Under the pieces are notes generated by a model. It worked only from the letters and a program-made list of their open reading frames with translations. It searched no databases and was not told the DNA's origin. Source: Nitrososphaerota archaeon (GTDB taxonomy: Archaea; Thermoproteota; Nitrososphaeria; Nitrososphaerales; Nitrosopumilaceae). Taken from it: DNA of 38,786 bases. The first letter of the stretch is position 1. Every line of letters starts with the position of its first letter. The position numbers and the translations under genes are program-made. The DNA lies in the NCBI GenBank assembly GCA_021323705.1, contig JAJPKL010000044.1, forward strand, positions 1 through 38,786. Direction: 5' to 3'. Positions 12,756-22,167 of the stretch are shown piece by piece.

Positions 12756-12793
12756 ACAATACATTTGTTTGAGAGAATCGGATTAAAAAATTT

Positions 12794-14559: not shown

Positions 14560-15172
14560 TTTTTATCACATGCGATTGCCTTTTCTCTCTTGTCGGATTT
14601 TCTGGTACACTATCTATCCAGTTTTCTTTTTCATATGCGTCATAAGTTCTATTGGTATAGTTGATCATTTTTATGAAATTTTTATCTGTCTCTGAAAGAT
14701 CACGTTTATTTGTCACATTGATTGTTTTACATAATTCATTCATATTTTCAAGTACTGATGCAATATTTTGTGATATGGACTGATGATTTATTGCCCACAT
14801 TGATATAAAAGAAGAATACGACGAGTAAAAATTTTGCACGGTGTTTCCAAGAAACAAGTTTCGCAGAAATTGATATGAAGTGAGAAGATAATACCATGAA
14901 GGATTGTAAATGCGTAGGTTTTTCTCAAGTTCAAGATACTGGTTGCTTATTTCATACGAAGATTTTGTCAATTCCTCAACTAACTCAAAGTGTAGTTTAA
15001 ACAAATCAGCAGCCATTTCGTTGAGTTTTTCAAAATTCTGGACGTAACTCTCCCTTATTTTGTTAAAATACCTGTCTTCACAAACAGGGCAGTTTGCGTT
15101 ATTATCAGTAGTGCCAATATCTTCTCCACACATAAGGCAAACATTTTTCCCTTTCTTGTTCTCATTTGGCAA
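14546..15172 (-). CDS. Unknown protein with N-terminal zinc knuckles
   Basis: This 208-aa protein starts with CLMCG ... CPVC (residues about 12-31), then a mostly helical, Tyr/Asn-rich region of about 160 residues without clear membrane spans. I do not recognise the family. It overlaps the upstream ferredoxin gene by 11 bases and the downstream zinc-ribbon gene by 14, so it is translationally coupled to both and probably acts with them. Confidence 0.7.
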   Translation of the reverse strand: MPNENKKGKNVCLMCGEDIGTTDNNANCPVCEDRYFNKIRESYVQNFEKLNEMAADLFKLHFELVEELTKSSYEISNQYLELEKNLRIYNPSWYYLLTSYQFLRNLFLGNTVQNFYSSYSSFISMWAINHQSISQNIASVLENMNELCKTINVTNKRDLSETDKNFIKMINYTNRTYDAYEKENWIDSVPENPTREKRQSHVIKNDNS

Positions 15173-15665
15173 GTTTTTCTTTCATCTCCTGATGAATCTT
15201 CTGGTTTGCCTGATCTACCTTGATTGCCTGTGTGGGACAGACTGAGACGCATGCCATGCACCAGATACAGTCATGTTCTCGGATGGGCTCTGACTTGTCG
15301 GTGTAATCTTTACGTCCTTCTTTTTGGTGATCCTCCCCTGTTCCAGCACTTGTAGCATTAATCATTTGAACAGCAGGTACATCATTTTCAGTCCTGTACC
15401 ACTGGTATACCTGGACAGGACAAACCTCTATGCAGCCTCCATCTGCAATACACGAGTCCCAGTCTAATGCGACAAAGGTACCATGAACACCAAGCGGGAC
15501 ATATTGCTCGCCCCTCTCTTTGTATGCATTTTGCACGTTCTCGTCAGTTGACGATTCGCCGTCCTCTTTTCCAGGCCCCCATACAAAGTGAAAATGTTCC
15601 CTGTCTGCATGCCTGTGCATTCCTATCACCTTGTGGTTTTTAGGAAATTCTGGGTCTATTGGCAT
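15162..15665 (-). CDS. Zinc-type ferredoxin, two [4Fe-4S] clusters
   Basis: This 167-aa ferredoxin resembles the zinc-containing ferredoxins of aerobic archaea. An N-terminal His-rich extension (MHRHADREHFHF) may bind zinc. Then come GVHGTFVALDWDSCIADGGCIEVCP for cluster one and CIWCMACVSVCP for cluster two. About 25 extra residues lie between the cluster motifs. It may be the electron carrier of the stress operon. Its start overlaps the upstream USP stop (TAATG). Confidence 0.88.
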   Translation of the reverse strand: MPIDPEFPKNHKVIGMHRHADREHFHFVWGPGKEDGESSTDENVQNAYKERGEQYVPLGVHGTFVALDWDSCIADGGCIEVCPVQVYQWYRTENDVPAVQMINATSAGTGEDHQKEGRKDYTDKSEPIREHDCIWCMACVSVCPTQAIKVDQANQKIHQEMKEKLAK

Positions 15666-16096: not shown

Positions 16097-16493
16097 TTGG
16101 AACAGCCTCCGCACATGGTGAGATCATCTCTTGTATTCTGAGATCGTGGATTTTCTCCTCAGTATTTCCAATAACGGATTCGAGATCATACCTATTGTCC
16201 ATTATGAAGATCAAGCTTCTAGGACCAAGCGGAATAGATACAATCTTTGCCATTTTCCTACAAATTACAAATTGTTCAACAGGACCAAACTCATCATCAA
16301 ATTCTTGCAACAAGGAGTGATGCAGTCTGAATCCCATGGAAAAAATCTCTTGTTTCTCTTTTGGAAGGTGGATCTCGCTTTTAGAGATCATTGACTCTAT
16401 CCTTCCCCTCTCATTTATCAGCATGACATGCCTGATTCCGTTATCAGGCAGATCTGCTAGCTTACTTGGTATTGCAGATTCTTTTTCTTGCAT
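16089..16493 (-). CDS. DUF6659/roadblock-like regulatory protein, first gene of the USP-ferredoxin operon
   Basis: This 134-aa protein has the run RHVMLINERGRIESMISKSE, then FGPVEQFVICRKMAKIVSIPLGPRSLIFIM, a sandwich pattern like the thaumarchaeal DUF6659 or roadblock/profilin-type sensor proteins. The family name is from memory and less sure than the fold pattern. It heads the operon; operator site B lies 46 bases upstream of its ATG. Confidence 0.6.
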   Translation of the reverse strand: MQEKESAIPSKLADLPDNGIRHVMLINERGRIESMISKSEIHLPKEKQEIFSMGFRLHHSLLQEFDDEFGPVEQFVICRKMAKIVSIPLGPRSLIFIMDNRYDLESVIGNTEEKIHDLRIQEMISPCAEAVPSG

Positions 16494-16538
16494 GAGACAA
16501 AGATATAATTTAGAATAGAAAAGGCCTTGCAGGAATTT

Positions 16539-16554
16539 GCAATAATTTTATTGC
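16539..16554. promoter_or_regulatory. Palindromic operator, site B (USP-ferredoxin operon)
   Basis: GCAATAATTTTATTGC is identical to site A and lies 46 bases before the start at 16493, with an AT-rich TATA region (CTAAATTATAT on the - strand) between. The only other neighbour is the 3' end of the gene at 16591. Confidence 0.8.
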
Positions 16555-16590
16555 ATTCAAGATTCATGGTTTTTGCAGTATACAGTATAG

Positions 16591-17136
16591 TTACTTGCGC
16601 CATGACGCCGTACTCTTGTCTATCTTTATTACCAGCGTATTATCTGTATAGTCAAATTCTGTCTTTGCACCCAAGTCATGGAATACATTTTCATAGAATG
16701 TCTTAAAGTATAACGACCAGTTCTCTCCCATGTCGTGCTGCATCACAATCTCGTGCGTTCTGTCATCTTCATACTCGGTCAAGTTAAAGCCCGACCTCTG
16801 GGCCCTTGCCTTCAATATGGAGAGCCACGCGTCAACATCATGCCTTCCTCGCATGTACAGGTTCATGTCCTTTGCCATGCGAACCGAAAGATTGGCGATT
16901 GTCTTTTGTACCTTGTCTTTTTCCACCAACTTGAACAGCTCAATGAGAAACGGTTTTGGCATCACTGCCCAACCTGCTGCCACTGCATTTATCTCCCATT
17001 CTACGTGTGAATCAAGTATCTGACTTACAAGAGCGTTGGGACTGAGCTTTTGCTTCTTGGCAAAGACTTTGATCTTGTTCCAAGTGTTGCTGTCAAGTCG
17101 GAGTGAGACAGACTCTGTCTGCTTTTTGCCTTCCAT
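16591..17136 (-). CDS. Ribbon-helix-helix-type protein with C-terminal sensor-like domain
   Basis: This 181-aa protein begins with SVSLRLDSNTWNKIKVFAKKQKLSPNALVSQILDSH, an RHH (Arc/MetJ-like) DNA-binding pattern. The remaining roughly 130 residues form an unrecognised mixed domain with Trp/Tyr-rich segments (ENWSLYFKTFYENVFHDLG). It is flanked by operator sites B and C, so it is a candidate for the protein that binds the palindromes. Direct evidence is lacking. Confidence 0.65.
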   Translation of the reverse strand: MEGKKQTESVSLRLDSNTWNKIKVFAKKQKLSPNALVSQILDSHVEWEINAVAAGWAVMPKPFLIELFKLVEKDKVQKTIANLSVRMAKDMNLYMRGRHDVDAWLSILKARAQRSGFNLTEYEDDRTHEIVMQHDMGENWSLYFKTFYENVFHDLGAKTEFDYTDNTLVIKIDKSTASWRK

Positions 17137-17268
17137 TCCATCACATTATTCTTTTTTTTATATATTAACGATTTTGGATATGTCCAGAAATGATAATTAC
17201 CCGTATTCTTACATATGTAAAAGACTAGTCATGCGTTATTGCAAATGATTGCAAAAGGTAACAAAAAT

Positions 17269-17284
17269 GCAATAAAATTATTGC
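17269..17284. promoter_or_regulatory. Palindromic operator, site C (Rieske operon)
   Basis: GCAATAAAATTATTGC is the site A sequence in inverse orientation. It is about 20 bases upstream of the TATA-like TTTCTATAG, which lies some 28 bases before the ATG at 17333. Two further half-like TTGCAAA sites lie at about 17239-17256. The RHH gene starts 133 bases away on the other side. Confidence 0.78.
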
Positions 17285-17332
17285 AAATTAGCAGCTGGCT
17301 TTTTCTATAGCGAGTGTGTACTATCCTTCAAA

Positions 17333-17656
17333 ATGAGTCAGGAGTTTGTAAGCGTGCTTAAAACAAAGGACTTGGAAAGTGGCAAGATGAAATCTGTCAG
17401 TTTCGGAAACGATGTCGTGTGCGTTATAAATCTTGGAGGGAACTTTTATGCGATAAACAACGTTTGTACCCACGAGGGCGGTCCGCTTGATGAAGGTACA
17501 CTGGACGGCTTTGAGGTAGAGTGCCCCTGGCATGGTGCAAGGTTTGACATAAGAACTGGCGAGGTCAAGGCACCGCCGGCAGAACAACCTGTATCAACAT
17601 ACCAGATAAAAATCCAGGGAGATGAGATTCTAATACGAAGACAGCCCAAGAACTGA
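17333..17656 (+). CDS. Rieske-type [2Fe-2S] ferredoxin
   Basis: This 107-aa protein is a small soluble Rieske domain with full ligand motifs CTH (in NNVCTHEGGPL) and CPWHG. It probably passes electrons from the FAD reductase encoded downstream to an unknown acceptor. Its stop overlaps the CTG start of a 35-aa zinc-ribbon ORF, and it shares operator site C. Confidence 0.93.
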   Translation: MSQEFVSVLKTKDLESGKMKSVSFGNDVVCVINLGGNFYAINNVCTHEGGPLDEGTLDGFEVECPWHGARFDIRTGEVKAPPAEQPVSTYQIKIQGDEILIRRQPKN

Positions 17657-17760
17657 GCAAGCAAAAAAAGATCTGCAAGAGGTGCAAGACAGAGTACGAG
17701 GAGGAAAACGGGTATCCAGTATGCGATTATTGCCTGAAATATCTGGACAACTGGGAGTGA
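17653..17760 (+). CDS. 35-aa zinc-ribbon microprotein, copy 1
   Basis: It begins at a CTG overlapping the Rieske stop (CTGA) and holds CKRC and CDYC, a minimal zinc ribbon. Residues from KKICKRC to the C-terminal WE (31 residues) equal those of copy 2 at 21110-21220, although eight codons differ, all by synonymous changes. That pattern strongly supports real translation. The start codon is inferred; no ATG, GTG or TTG is available in frame. It ends five bases before the FAD reductase start. Confidence 0.7.
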   Translation: MSKQKKICKRCKTEYEEENGYPVCDYCLKYLDNWE

Positions 17761-17765
17761 GAAGG

Positions 17766-19004
17766 ATGGAGGAGTTTGACTATATCATAATCGGCGGCGG
17801 CCTTGCTGGAGGAAATGCCGCAATCTCGATTAGAGAAAATGACCCAAATGGCAGCATCCTGTTGATTGCCAACGAAAATCACATACCATACGATCGTGTC
17901 CCACTCTCAAAGAATTTCCTATATGGAAATATGCCAAGAGAGGTCCTATACTTTAAAAAACAAGACTATTATGACTTGCAAAAAATAAAAATTCTCACCG
18001 GCAAGACAGTAACTCTTCTTGATACCAAAGACAAGACGATTATTTTGGAAGATAAATCGCGCATACATTTTGGAAAGCTTCTTCTGGCAACAGGAGGAGT
18101 TGCTCGCAACCTTGACATTCCAGGATCAAACTTGAAAAACGTCTTTTATCTGCGGACAATCGACGACAGCGAACAAGTCAAGAAAGCAATGCAAACTGCA
18201 AAAAATGTCCTAGTCATAGGAGGCGGATTTATTGGGTGTGAGCTTGCGTCATCTTTTGCCAAGAAGGGGCTCAAGACAACCATCATAGAGGTGGGAAGCA
18301 AGATTCTGGGAAGAGTTTTTGACGAGGATACCGCAGTGTGGGTTCAAAATTACTTTGAAAAGAAGGGAATACGGATTCTTACAGGCACCGTGCCAAGCAA
18401 GATAATAGAAAAGAATGGGAGGGCAGTGGGTGTAGAATCCAAATCAGGTGAGATACTGGAGGCAGACTTTGTAATTGTCGGAATAGGGATATCGCCCAAT
18501 GTGGAACTTGCGAAAAATGCAGGATTGAAGGTGGACAACGGCATATGGTGCGACGAGTACCTCCAGACATCTGATCTTGACGTTTATGCGGCAGGGGATG
18601 TGGCCAACTTTTACAGCCCCGTCTTCAAGAGGCAGATGAGGCTTGAACACTATGATCTGACAATAAGACAAGGAAAAACTGCTGGTGCTAACATGACAGG
18701 AAGATGCGAACCTCTGGTCGACCTGCCCTACTTTTTCTCTTTCATGTTTGACATCCGGATTGAGGTCTATGGTGACATGGGGAAATATGACAATGTGGTT
18801 GTCAGGGGAAGGCCAGAGGAAGGCCATTTTGTCAAGTTGTATCTTCTTGATGGCGTGGTAAACGCAGTAATGCTTGTAAACAGCAGGGAAGATGCCGGTG
18901 CCATCAAGAAACTTATCCTTTCGCGCCACAAATTAAGCGATTTTGCGTTGTTAAAGGATCAGTCAACTCCCCTCGGGCAGATGCTTGCAAAGGAGATTTT
19001 ATGA
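17766..19004 (+). CDS. FAD-dependent NAD(P)H:ferredoxin/rubredoxin reductase-like protein
   Basis: This 412-aa protein has two dinucleotide-binding motifs, GGGLAGG near residue 12 for FAD and [12 protein letters not shown] near 150 for NAD(P)H, plus the late FAD block [11 protein letters not shown]. The layout is that of ferredoxin or rubredoxin reductases partnering Rieske proteins. The frame is open to 17682, but ATG 17766 has a GAGAAGG ribosome site and starts right at the FAD fold. It overlaps the DUF488 gene as ATGA. Confidence 0.9.
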
Positions 19005-19360
19005 TAAAGATCAAGAGAATTTACGAACCTCCCTCTCAAAGCGACGGATTCAGAGTACTTGTAGACGGCCTGTGGCCTCGGGGGTTTGCCAAAGACGACG
19101 CGAAGATAGACCTTTGGATGAAAGAGATTGCCCCGTCTGGGGAATTGCGAAAATGGTTCTCACATGATCCCAAAAAATGGGAGAGATTCAAGTCAAGATA
19201 CAAAAAAGAACTTGAGAAAAAATCAGGATTGGTCAAGGAAATAAAAAAGATCGAAAAAGAGAACAAGGTTGTAACCCTTCTCTTCGCTACAAAGGATGAA
19301 ACGCATAGTAACGTGCATGTTTTAAACGAGATTCTTAGAAAACGATCACAACAAAGTTGA
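19001..19360 (+). CDS. DUF488 (YeaO-like) family protein
   Basis: This 119-aa protein has [29 protein letters not shown] and [16 protein letters not shown], the hallmarks of the short YeaO-type DUF488 proteins. Function is unknown. It overlaps the reductase stop by four bases and ends the Rieske operon. A longer DUF488 paralogue lies at 22178. Confidence 0.88.
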
Positions 19361-19393
19361 TTTAGAGTTTTGTGTTTGACTTGGATTTACATG

Positions 19394-19705
19394 CTACTTT
19401 AACTTGTCTCTTAGTCTTTTCAGAGCCATATATCTATCATCGATGTCAGATATTATCTTTTTAATCTCGTCATATTCCATGCTTAGAAGCTTCCAATCCT
19501 CCCAATTATCGGAGCTTATTACCGTATGGCCCCTTCTTTTGTAAAGTTTTTTTCTTAACGTGAGAAATTCCCTCTCAACTTTTTTCCTTTTCAAAATCAA
19601 GGAGTGTATTTCATTTATGATACTATCGGATTTAGAAATGTGTAACTTTGACCTTGCGTCAGAAAGACTCGTCTTGGAAGTCAAGCGGGAATGACCTTCT
19701 TTCAT
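19394..19705 (-). CDS. Coiled-coil protein of unknown function
   Basis: This 103-aa, highly charged and mostly helical protein (HSLILKRKKVEREFLTLRKKLYKRRG) has a second helix near its C-terminus. No family is recognised. Its start overlaps the stop of the CBS gene (ATGA), so it is translationally coupled to it and is probably a partner. Confidence 0.6.
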   Translation of the reverse strand: MKEGHSRLTSKTSLSDARSKLHISKSDSIINEIHSLILKRKKVEREFLTLRKKLYKRRGHTVISSDNWEDWKLLSMEYDEIKKIISDIDDRYMALKRLRDKLK

Positions 19706-20325
19706 ACCTTCCTTGAGCGAGAGACCGCCTCAAGTATGGCTTTTGCTAATCCTGGTCGTTTTGTAGAGGACAGTAGCATGGCAAGATCCCTTGCAACAAC
19801 CATTCCCACAAGTTTGCCATCCTGCACTACAGGAATCCGCCGTATGCTGTTTTTCATCATGATATCTGCTACATTTTCGACGGTATCTAGCGGAGATGCA
19901 TAAACAAGTGGCCTTGAGGCTATGACCCCAAGTGAGAGTTCTGCAAGCCTCTTGTCAAAGACGGTCAACTCGCACAAAATGTCTCGCTCGGTCACCATGC
20001 CAAACGGTTTGCCTTTTGCAGTAACTACAATACATCCGACTCCTTTCTGAATCATCAGAGTTGCAGCATCAAGGGCAGAGTTTGAGACATCAAGGCTTGC
20101 AACATCTTTCCGCATAATCTGTCCCACTGGAATGTTGCCTTCCTCGTAAATTACCTCCAAGGCATCCTTTCTTATGAGATTATCAATTATTTTTTGGACA
20201 TCGACAATGTCCATTCTTACTTTCTTGGCAATTCGTTCTACCGATAGGTCCGAATACAGGTACATTGAATCTATGAGTTTTACCTTCGCATGCAAATCAT
20301 TTGATTTCTCAAGCAGAGTTGTCAT
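19702..20325 (-). CDS. CBS-domain pair protein with N-terminal HTH
   Basis: This 207-aa protein has an HTH-like start (LSVERIAKKVRMDIVDVQKIIDNLIRKDAL), then two CBS motifs (about 75-130 and 140-195; GCIVVTAKGKPFGMVTERDIL and RIPVVQDGKLVGMVVARDL), which bind adenine nucleotides. The frame is open to an ATG at 20397, but that would put operator site D inside the gene. ATG 20325 has a TATA-like ACTAAATAG 29 bases upstream and the operator about 50 bases upstream, as at the other sites. Confidence 0.82.
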   Translation of the reverse strand: MTTLLEKSNDLHAKVKLIDSMYLYSDLSVERIAKKVRMDIVDVQKIIDNLIRKDALEVIYEEGNIPVGQIMRKDVASLDVSNSALDAATLMIQKGVGCIVVTAKGKPFGMVTERDILCELTVFDKRLAELSLGVIASRPLVYASPLDTVENVADIMMKNSIRRIPVVQDGKLVGMVVARDLAMLLSSTKRPGLAKAILEAVSRSRKV

Positions 20326-20374
20326 TTCCAATATAGATTGCTCTTCAGCTCTATTTAGTGTACAGCATGAGATT

Positions 20375-20390
20375 GCAATAATTCTATTGC
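20375..20390. promoter_or_regulatory. Palindromic operator, site D (divergent CBS and Rieske-variant genes)
   Basis: GCAATAATTCTATTGC differs from site A by one base. It lies midway between two divergent leaderless promoters: about 50 bases from ATG 20325 on the - strand and 37 bases from ATG 20427 on the + strand, whose TATA-like TTTATCAT sits near 20400. One operator may therefore control both genes. Confidence 0.75.
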
Positions 20391-20426
20391 ATCCCATTTA
20401 TCATAAAGCCTTAACATATGTTATTC

Positions 20427-20780
20427 ATGGCTACACAAGGTAAAGTATTGCGTAGGATTGGAAACATCAGAGATATCGATGATGACAAGATCTCAAGAGT
20501 TGAGGTAGAAGGCAGATCCATCATACTTGTACGAAAAGGAAAGGACGTGTACGCGATAGATTCTGTCTGTGGCGAAGGATGCAAGTCTCTCTGCGATGGC
20601 ATACTGGAGGGATTTTTCATACGATGTCCGTGGTACCATGAATACTATGACATACGAACAGGCAAGCCGCTTGGAGTATCGCATTGCAAGTCTTCCATCA
20701 GAGTATATGAGAACAGGGTAAATGAGACAAACGGAGACATTTTTGTATACATTGATGCAAACGATAGCGCAAATGCATAA
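20427..20780 (+). CDS. Rieske-fold protein with altered cluster ligands
   Basis: This 117-aa protein aligns without gaps to the Rieske protein at 17333 around the cluster. The first His is replaced (CTH becomes CGE) and CPWHG reads CPWYH, so that His is a Tyr with a new His next to it. Two extra Cys appear in the first loop (VCGEGCKSLCDG). Four Cys plus one displaced His could hold an all-Cys cluster or another metal; loss of any cluster is also possible. ATG 20427 is chosen by its TATA box 26 bases upstream; the frame is open to 20418. Confidence 0.8.
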   Translation: MATQGKVLRRIGNIRDIDDDKISRVEVEGRSIILVRKGKDVYAIDSVCGEGCKSLCDGILEGFFIRCPWYHEYYDIRTGKPLGVSHCKSSIRVYENRVNETNGDIFVYIDANDSANA

Positions 20781-20797
20781 AATAAATTTCTAAAAGA

Positions 20798-20944
20798 CTA
20801 ATCTTCTGGCTCGCATGATTCCTTTATGGTATTGCAGCATTTCTTGCAATATATCCTATCTTCACAACCGCACCAGTCAGACGACCCGCAAACAATACAA
20901 TGAAAATCTAGATCATCGGATAATTTTGGTTCTACCCTTATCAC
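20798..20944 (-). CDS. 48-aa Cys-rich microprotein
   Basis: It starts at GTG and holds CIVCGSSDWCGCEDRIYCKKCCNTIKESC cut by few other residues, nine Cys in all, so it probably binds two zinc ions or an Fe-S cluster. The start overlaps the stop region of the upstream 52-aa gene. It is the last gene of a five-gene operon starting at 21803. Confidence 0.65.
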   Translation of the reverse strand: MIRVEPKLSDDLDFHCIVCGSSDWCGCEDRIYCKKCCNTIKESCEPED

Positions 20945-20946
20945 AC

Positions 20947-21105
20947 CTAGTCCCCTCCCATCGTATCGCATGCACACAGCCCATACTCGTCAATTCTAGT
21001 CTTACAGACTGCGCATTCCTCTCCATAGCGTACCTCCCATGCTTCTTTTGAATACATGTGAAGATGATCGTCAATCTCCTTTGGAATCAAGTTCTTTTCT
21101 GCCAT
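20947..21105 (-). CDS. 52-aa Cys-rich microprotein
   Basis: It begins MAEKNLIPKEIDDHLHMYSKEAW and has four Cys near the C-terminus (CAVC ... CAC), a likely zinc site. Its ATG lies five bases after the stop of microprotein copy 2. No family is recognised. Confidence 0.65.
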   Translation of the reverse strand: MAEKNLIPKEIDDHLHMYSKEAWEVRYGEECAVCKTRIDEYGLCACDTMGGD

Positions 21106-21109
21106 ATTC

Positions 21110-21220
21110 TCACTCCCAGTTGTCAAGATATTTCAGGCAGTAATCGCATACGGGGTAGCCATTTTCTTCTTCGTACTCTGTCTTGCACCTCTTGCAGATC
21201 TTTTTTGGCTTTGCTGCCAC
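21110..21220 (-). CDS. 36-aa zinc-ribbon microprotein, copy 2
   Basis: From GTG it reads MAAKPKKICKRC and ends YLDNWE. The 31-residue core is identical to copy 1 (17653-17760) while eight codons differ silently. CKRC and CDYC form the zinc ribbon. It lies inside the microprotein operon, five bases before the 52-aa gene. Confidence 0.72.
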   Translation of the reverse strand: MAAKPKKICKRCKTEYEEENGYPVCDYCLKYLDNWE

Positions 21221-21252: not shown

Positions 21253-21414
21253 TCATAGGCTCTCAAGTTTCGAGATGAGTCCCTCTATCTTTTCCGCATC
21301 TATTGCAAAATCTGGGTCAATGCTCTCGGTTGGGCATGCACCTTCGGCGAATTTTAGGATCTCAATGAGCGTCTTGATCTCTTTTTCATCCAATGAGACT
21401 TGTTTTTCTGTCAT
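21253..21414 (-). CDS. 53-aa small acidic helical protein
   Basis: It begins MTEKQVSLDEKEIKTLIEIL, is acidic and probably all-helical with one Cys. Its ATG overlaps the upstream stop (ATGA), showing coupling to the 130-aa gene. No family is recognised. Confidence 0.65.
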   Translation of the reverse strand: MTEKQVSLDEKEIKTLIEILKFAEGACPTESIDPDFAIDAEKIEGLISKLESL

Positions 21415-21803
21415 CTTAGTGCGTCACCTGCTACCATTCGTTTTGCCATGTTGCGAAGCCATGCAATATGTCCAGAGCTTGTTACCTTACTACCATCAAT
21501 CGTAGTCTTTTGTGCATTATGGCCGTTTCTTGCAATAATCTCTTCTTTCTTGATTGAGAGGTCTTGTCTAAACTCTACCAATATCTTCAACAGATTCTTC
21601 CTGTTGTCATAAAAGTTGACAAGATCGTATTGGGCAAGAAAGGTATCTTTTGATTTGCTGTGTTTTGTAGAAATGTCCTTGTAGACAAGCCTTGACCTCG
21701 GAGGCATTCTCTGGCGTTCAAGTTTTTTCAATATGGGTTCATTGTGTTTCCAAAAAAGTCCAACATCCATATTGTGAATTTTTTGAGATGATATTCCATT
21801 CAT
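21411..21803 (-). CDS. Unknown basic protein heading the microprotein operon
   Basis: This 130-aa basic protein (MNGISSQKIHNMDVGLFWKH) has RQRMPPRSRLVYKD and a helical C-terminal half. It has no Cys motif and no family I recognise. A TATA-like GTTTAAATTAAAT lies about 26 bases before the ATG, so it starts the operon 21803-20798. A degenerate TTGCAA-TTGCAA pair at about 21888-21906 lies upstream. Confidence 0.65.
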   Translation of the reverse strand: MNGISSQKIHNMDVGLFWKHNEPILKKLERQRMPPRSRLVYKDISTKHSKSKDTFLAQYDLVNFYDNRKNLLKILVEFRQDLSIKKEEIIARNGHNAQKTTIDGSKVTSSGHIAWLRNMAKRMVAGDALR

Positions 21804-21972
21804 GACACTTGATTCTCATAATTTAATTTAAACACAAACTTGGATTCTCATAGCTGATAACGTGCAAGACAAATGTCATGGATTGATTGCAATAGAGTAA
21901 TTTGCAATTGTAAATTTCAGTTTTGATAATCAAGACACTTGTTTATTATAAAATAAATAAAGTTATCATCAA

Positions 21973-22167
21973 ATGAATATTTACTACAAAAGACAAATCC
22001 ACTGCGTGGGGTGCGGTCAATTCATAGGCGAAGTTGATTGCGAGGCAAAGGTCCTTCTTCCACGGTGCGGAACATGTTCAAACTCTGAAAGTGATGGAAA
22101 TGACCTTCTCACGTTTATGGCAGAAAGGTTTGAGAATACAGTTAAGAACATAATTGTATCTCACTAG
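21973..22167 (+). CDS. 64-aa zinc-ribbon protein
   Basis: It begins MNIYYKRQIHCVGCG and carries CVGC ... CGTC (residues 11-35), a zinc ribbon, plus a helical tail. It is followed 10 bases later by the DUF488 gene and probably shares its transcript. An AT-rich TATA region (TATAAAATAAATAA) lies upstream. Confidence 0.72.
   Translation: MNIYYKRQIHCVGCGQFIGEVDCEAKVLLPRCGTCSNSESDGNDLLTFMAERFENTVKNIIVSH

Follow-up and report, generated by a model that had tools for sequence, protein, structure and literature searches.

ZnR is a very small protein with four cysteines in two CxxC pairs. By codon and gene-neighbourhood comparison, its genes are coding genes under purifying selection with two conserved operon partners, a Rieske ferredoxin and a 52-residue microprotein (m52), and they make up a real microprotein family that had not been catalogued. 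A very small protein family is thereby added for acid-soil ammonia-oxidising archaea. The source organism, an ammonia-oxidising archaeon of acid soil, carries two copies, both of which lie in the window, the whole stretch of 38,786 nucleotides that was analysed. The account we favour, with somewhat more belief than doubt, is that these are anciently duplicated Cys4 microprotein genes whose product is a Zn(Cys)4 mini treble-clef adaptor made by reinitiation behind upstream genes. The genes concerned are the following.

17333..17656, + strand: Rieske [2Fe-2S] ferredoxin of the dioxygenase-ferredoxin type (Pfam Rieske, E 4.6e-21), partner of the copy-1 line
17653..17760, + strand: ZnR copy 1, C-x2-C-x12-C-x2-C microprotein of 35 aa, with CTG at 17653
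17766..19004, + strand: FAD/NAD(P) ferredoxin-reductase-type flavoprotein (Pyr_redox_2 and Reductase_C)
20947..21105, - strand: m52, 52-aa microprotein with C-x2-C-x9-C-x-C, partner of the copy-2 line
21110..21220, - strand: ZnR copy 2, 36 aa counted from GTG
21253..21414, - strand: m53, microprotein of 53 aa encoded upstream of copy 2, in relatives also found behind the second Rieske gene
21411..21803, - strand: c19, 130-aa protein heading the copy-2 gene run

Selection on a small protein family

Copy 1 (17653-17760, + strand) gives LSKQKKICKRCKTEYEEENGYPVCDYCLKYLDNWE when read from CTG, and copy 2 (21220-21110, minus strand) gives (V)AAKPKKICKRCKTEYEEENGYPVCDYCLKYLDNWE when read from GTG. 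The sequence-only reading had placed copy 2 correctly at 21110-21220 and had left out its strand. It had also claimed 31 identical residues with eight silent codon changes, and codon comparison bears this out: the peptide KKICKRCKTEYEEENGYPVCDYCLKYLDNWE is identical in both copies across the final 31 codons, and every one of the eight codons that differ does so synonymously. Counted over the 29 core codons (Nei-Gojobori), the pair has 14.5 synonymous and 72.5 nonsynonymous sites with 8 and 0 differences, respectively, which gives dS ~1.0 and dN 0; the chance that all eight of eight changes would be synonymous under neutrality is P ~6e-7, a value that ignores transition bias. No third copy turned up when the full 1.84-Mb genome was searched in tblastn fashion.

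The same constraint is found across the family, as had been proposed for a translated microprotein under purifying selection. Family dN/dS medians are 0.04-0.09, and the four cysteines are invariant among intact members in alignments of 27 and 39 sequences. Members are about 31-46 aa long and follow the pattern C-x2-C-x11/12-C-x2-C-L-x2-[LM]-D-[ND]-[WY]-E. Searches of whole genomes from the family, genus, class and phylum, with a scan of named genomes, identified clear homologues in ~30 genomes. All belong to Candidatus Nitrosotalea (26 of 37 genomes, degenerate copies counted; N. devanaterra and N. bavarica are among the carriers) or to a small number of related genera within its family, for the most part soil and groundwater MAGs. 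ZnR was absent from the remaining genera sampled in that family and from the rest of the class and phylum samples; matches elsewhere in the phylum were at chance level only. Viral contigs gave no match, and a viral origin was rejected on that ground. Searches of Pfam, NCBIfam and PDB returned nothing over cut-off.

Frameshifts and drift in relatives had been named beforehand as the sign that would speak against selection. Both were found, confined to surplus or degenerate copies (L035-L042) that have lost a cysteine or acquired a frameshift or stop, and all genomes with such a copy except G085 hold an intact one elsewhere. Several near-complete Nitrosotalea genomes carry no ZnR gene at all; the gene is therefore dispensable, and this counts against the account we favour.

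Two lines of descent and their operon partners

By gene neighbourhood, copy 1 belongs to a Rieske line (A) and copy 2 to an m52 line (B). The proposed position of copy 1 between the Rieske ferredoxin and the ferredoxin-reductase-type flavoprotein was confirmed, and so was its link to the Rieske gene: of the 11 close orthologues of this dioxygenase-type Rieske ferredoxin gene in the genus (at least 55% identity), 10 have ZnR directly behind them, either overlapping or starting within ~15 nt, and this adjacency is kept despite rearranged reductase and DUF488 neighbours. At L066, in another genus, a diverged Rieske gene (32% identity) precedes ZnR. The best NCBIfam matches of the window's Rieske protein are PRK09965/HcaC/AndAb, under cut-off. 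In line B, ZnR lies directly ahead of m52 in 13 of the 14 m52 loci of the genus, N. devanaterra among them, and the order c19-m53-ZnR-m52 is common to the copy-2 run and to L046, L047 and L049. No Pfam match was found for m52. As first described, copy 2 is one of several small ORFs in a row, and a second, atypical Rieske protein is encoded nearby.

We conclude from codon and gene-order comparison that the copies are ancient paralogues. Their middle codons match different relatives (those of copy 1 agree with L048, those of copy 2 with L046), and two other genomes, G128 and G113, hold both lines with paralogues that differ in sequence, which indicates that the duplication predates the species; a recent duplication was rejected for these reasons. 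Perfect identity of the two paralogues is special to the source genome. Within the 31-codon stretch the copies agree at each of the first 33 nt, and all eight differences fall within the final 60 nt (P of roughly 0.03, calculated by hand), so a local, partial gene conversion over those 33 nt is possible, with weak support.

Since 10 of 11 Rieske orthologues are directly followed by ZnR, with overlap, and since copy 1 is flanked by the Rieske and reductase genes, ZnR could be a dedicated small subunit of a Rieske ferredoxin/flavoprotein electron-transfer complex. The redox-complex subunit suggested by the sequence-only reading thus keeps the Rieske link of copy 1, but the wider distribution makes it rather unlikely: copy 2 and its line are tied to m52, further lines are tied to unrelated genes, most Rieske-family genes of the genus have no adjoining ZnR, and L048 keeps ZnR without Rieske. 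INDEPENDENCE from the Rieske gene is seen at this last locus (genome G123), where an internal deletion took nearly all Rieske codons and left the palindrome, the last ~nine Rieske codons with the stop, and ZnR. The latter is intact and shows 8 synonymous and 2 nonsynonymous codon differences against copy 1. An adjacent Rieske gene is also missing at L055, L051 and the loci of genus g6, where a 31-residue, ATG-started ZnR lies just ahead of apparent NurA-HerA-Mre11-Rad50 genes (annotation by eye). Since L048 kept ZnR without Rieske and another genus has ZnR beside repair genes, ZnR is not simply a subunit of a Rieske complex.

Several observations were made on the surrounding genes. The L048 deletion (L048:5880-6110) spared the operator, the final Rieske codons and the downstream microprotein. 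The loci with a 31-aa, ATG-started ZnR directly ahead of these apparent repair genes are L036, L063, L064, L065, L067 and L068. The second Rieske-family protein of the window (20421-20777, + strand) is without the usual CxH...CxxH ligands (VCGEGCKSLCDG ... CPWYHEYYD) and, judged on these residues, may hold no cluster or an unusual one. Two small Cys-rich ORFs have no Pfam match: m59 (20801-20977, - strand; HCIVCGSSDWCGC...CKKCC), for which genome search found nothing in relatives, its sole relative being convergent to ZnR in L048, and ORF64 (21973-22164, + strand; CVGCG...CGTC), which has a relative near L091 and L092. A ferredoxin at 15162-15665 (- strand) is similar to the Thermoplasmatales ferredoxin that contains zinc (NF041165, E 1e-29, under the cut-off of that family).

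Start codons and translation

Most ZnR members have an ATG, GTG or TTG 5 to 17 codons ahead of KRC. Neither window copy starts with ATG, as had been noticed from the sequence. Copy 1 has no ATG, GTG or TTG anywhere in its open frame (17626-17760), and its CTG overlaps the Rieske stop (aaCTGAgc); L048 is the only relative with this CTG, likewise at the Rieske stop (CTGA). The GTG of copy 2 corresponds to a Val encoded by GTA in L046 and GTT in L049, so its true start is uncertain. Intact members without any ATG, GTG or TTG are copy 1, L046, L047, L048, L049 and L066, and they too count against the favoured account. Constraint is evident despite the lack of a standard start in the comparison of L047 with copy 2 (13 synonymous, 2 nonsynonymous) and is less clear between L046 and L049 (4 synonymous, 7 nonsynonymous). 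Gene finders based on start codons would miss part of this family.

Fusion with the upstream gene, through a programmed frameshift or read-through, was rejected because the frame relation varies by locus. The Rieske-ZnR frame has one offset in the window, L058, L076 and L085 and another in L033, while in L066 the two genes share a frame with a gap and stops between them; the frame of m53 relative to ZnR is 1, 2, 1 and 0 in the window, L046, L049 and L047, respectively. No conserved slippery site was seen at ZnR loci. The varying frame relation favours reinitiation after the upstream stop, and reinitiation at a weak start codon behind the upstream gene appears to be the simplest reading. A stronger version, in which several members without ATG, GTG or TTG depend entirely on termination-reinitiation at near-cognate codons behind an upstream gene, which would lock the dose of a zinc adaptor to a redox protein, is a speculative proposal that we think probably goes too far. 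Literature searches brought up nothing of use on CUG starts in archaea or on a link between Rieske and small proteins in Nitrosotalea. Intact genes that lack a standard start occur in several genomes and in several frames, and they offer a natural test of weak-start reinitiation in Thaumarchaeota.

Predicted fold and function, and a probable shared operator

The AF2 model (pLDDT 84.7) places the first CxxC on a hairpin and the second at helix 26-33. This topology fits the knuckle, hairpin and helix of a treble clef, with no significant Foldseek match; the nearest sensible folds, the XPA zinc domain and uS14, superpose at rmsd 1.5-1.8 over 28 residues without reaching significance. AF2 is unable to decide metal binding, and zinc was absent from 5 of the 14 Haloferax C(P)XCG microproteins that were tested (PMC11241148), so zinc binding by ZnR is not to be assumed.

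In the account we favour, the peptide would form a mini treble-clef/zinc-knuckle module with one structural Zn(Cys)4 at its core and would serve in trans as a small adaptor for docking or regulation. It would be made in step with the upstream gene by termination-reinitiation, with weak starts tolerated; one copy would be co-produced with the electron chain of Rieske ferredoxin and reductase, the other with m52. The Rieske-ZnR and ZnR-m52 pairings provide concrete candidate partners.

Among known systems, ZnR is most readily set beside Haloferax volcanii HVO_2753 and HVO_0758 (PMC6562870, PMC10716476, PMC11241148), which are likewise archaeal, shorter than 70 aa and carry four Cys in two CxxC; the four Cys of ZnR are invariant in the 39-sequence alignment. 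Like the C(P)XCG microproteins of that species, ZnR is lineage-restricted, has several paralogues and has partners that are mostly unknown. Set beside the Haloferax proteins on general features, ZnR differs in having no Pro/Gly signature (CKRCK, CDYCL); its motifs are C[KR]xC[KG] and C[DNS][YN]CL in place of two C(P)XCG, and few first knuckles end in CG. In addition, ZnR is about half their size, is tied to Rieske or m52 operons, and has some members without a standard start codon. The best Pfam matches are the zinc ribbons DZR_2 (PF18912) and HypA (PF01155), which share the two-CxxC spacing (E 0.005-0.06, under cut-offs). Scores reach 16.7-16.9 bits against a cut-off of 27 for DZR_2 and 13.8 bits against 28.9 for HypA, of which the zinc part alone aligned. 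Unlike these, ZnR is half of a double ribbon, stands alone and has a C-terminal helix. Matches to SepCysS, uS14 and other PDB sequences were not significant and were rejected.

The small metal donor proposed in the sequence-only reading, a metallochaperone, finds no support here and is in our estimate close to negligible. ZnR has four cysteines and a weak HypA zinc-ribbon similarity (E 0.06), but the HypA score is far under its cut-off, there is no metal-transfer motif, and no metal-enzyme maturation genes were identified alongside. It is very unlikely that ZnR is a minimal electron carrier or redox switch with a rubredoxin-like Fe(Cys)4 site that takes its electrons from the flavoprotein reductase. 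The two CxxC knuckles, the redox operon, a weak match to the rubredoxin N-terminal knuckle and an adjoining reductase (17766..19004) related to NorW-type flavorubredoxin reductases all agree with it; however, the 11-12 residue linker is far below that of rubredoxin, the second knuckle has no CPxCG, the PDB rubredoxin match is not significant (E 1.6), and the contexts in other genera are non-redox. We also consider it unlikely, if less so, that ZnR is a nucleic-acid-binding zinc module acting in trans as a regulator or a repair or translation accessory. The structures nearest to the model, the XPA zinc subdomain and the uS14 zinc module (PDB 6lae, 1fjg_N), share its small hairpin and helix, the N-terminal arm is basic, and the g6 gene lies just ahead of the apparent repair genes. 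Against this, half of the peptide is strongly acidic, Foldseek E values are above 1 with no sequence relation shown to XPA or uS14 and no significant homology, and neighbours vary between genera.

The palindrome-linked neighbourhood described from the sequence alone was substantiated by the following sites.

16538..16555, no strand: same palindrome as at 17268, upstream of a leftward gene starting at 16493
17268..17285, no strand: exact palindrome TGCAATAAAATTATTGCA, a candidate operator that lies 48 nt ahead of the Rieske-ZnR operon
20374..20391, no strand: same palindrome, between a CBS gene and the second Rieske-family gene
21888..21906, no strand: degenerate gap-7 palindrome TGCAATAGAGTAATTTGCA, upstream of the copy-2 operon

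The exact motif TGCAATN6ATTGCA has four sites genome-wide, three of them in the window (16538, 17268 and 20374), and a reversed control motif had no genome match even at one mismatch. The 17268 palindrome is conserved at L048:5884 despite loss of the Rieske gene, and L046 has two overlapping perfect palindromes at the site equivalent to the degenerate 21888..21906. Because of these exact palindromes, the degenerate gap-7 form ahead of the copy-2 run and its perfect counterpart in L046, both ZnR lines probably belong to one local regulon, and in the favoured account both operons would probably answer the same operator.

Near-identical 18-nt palindromes (TGCAATAATTnTATTGCA) occur at 12793, 16538, 17268 and 20374, within one 8-kb island. 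The gene at 16594-17136 (- strand), divergent from the Rieske operon, has no Pfam match and has a ribbon-helix-helix look by eye; it is kept beside the L048 palindrome, and its product is a possible ribbon-helix-helix regulator.
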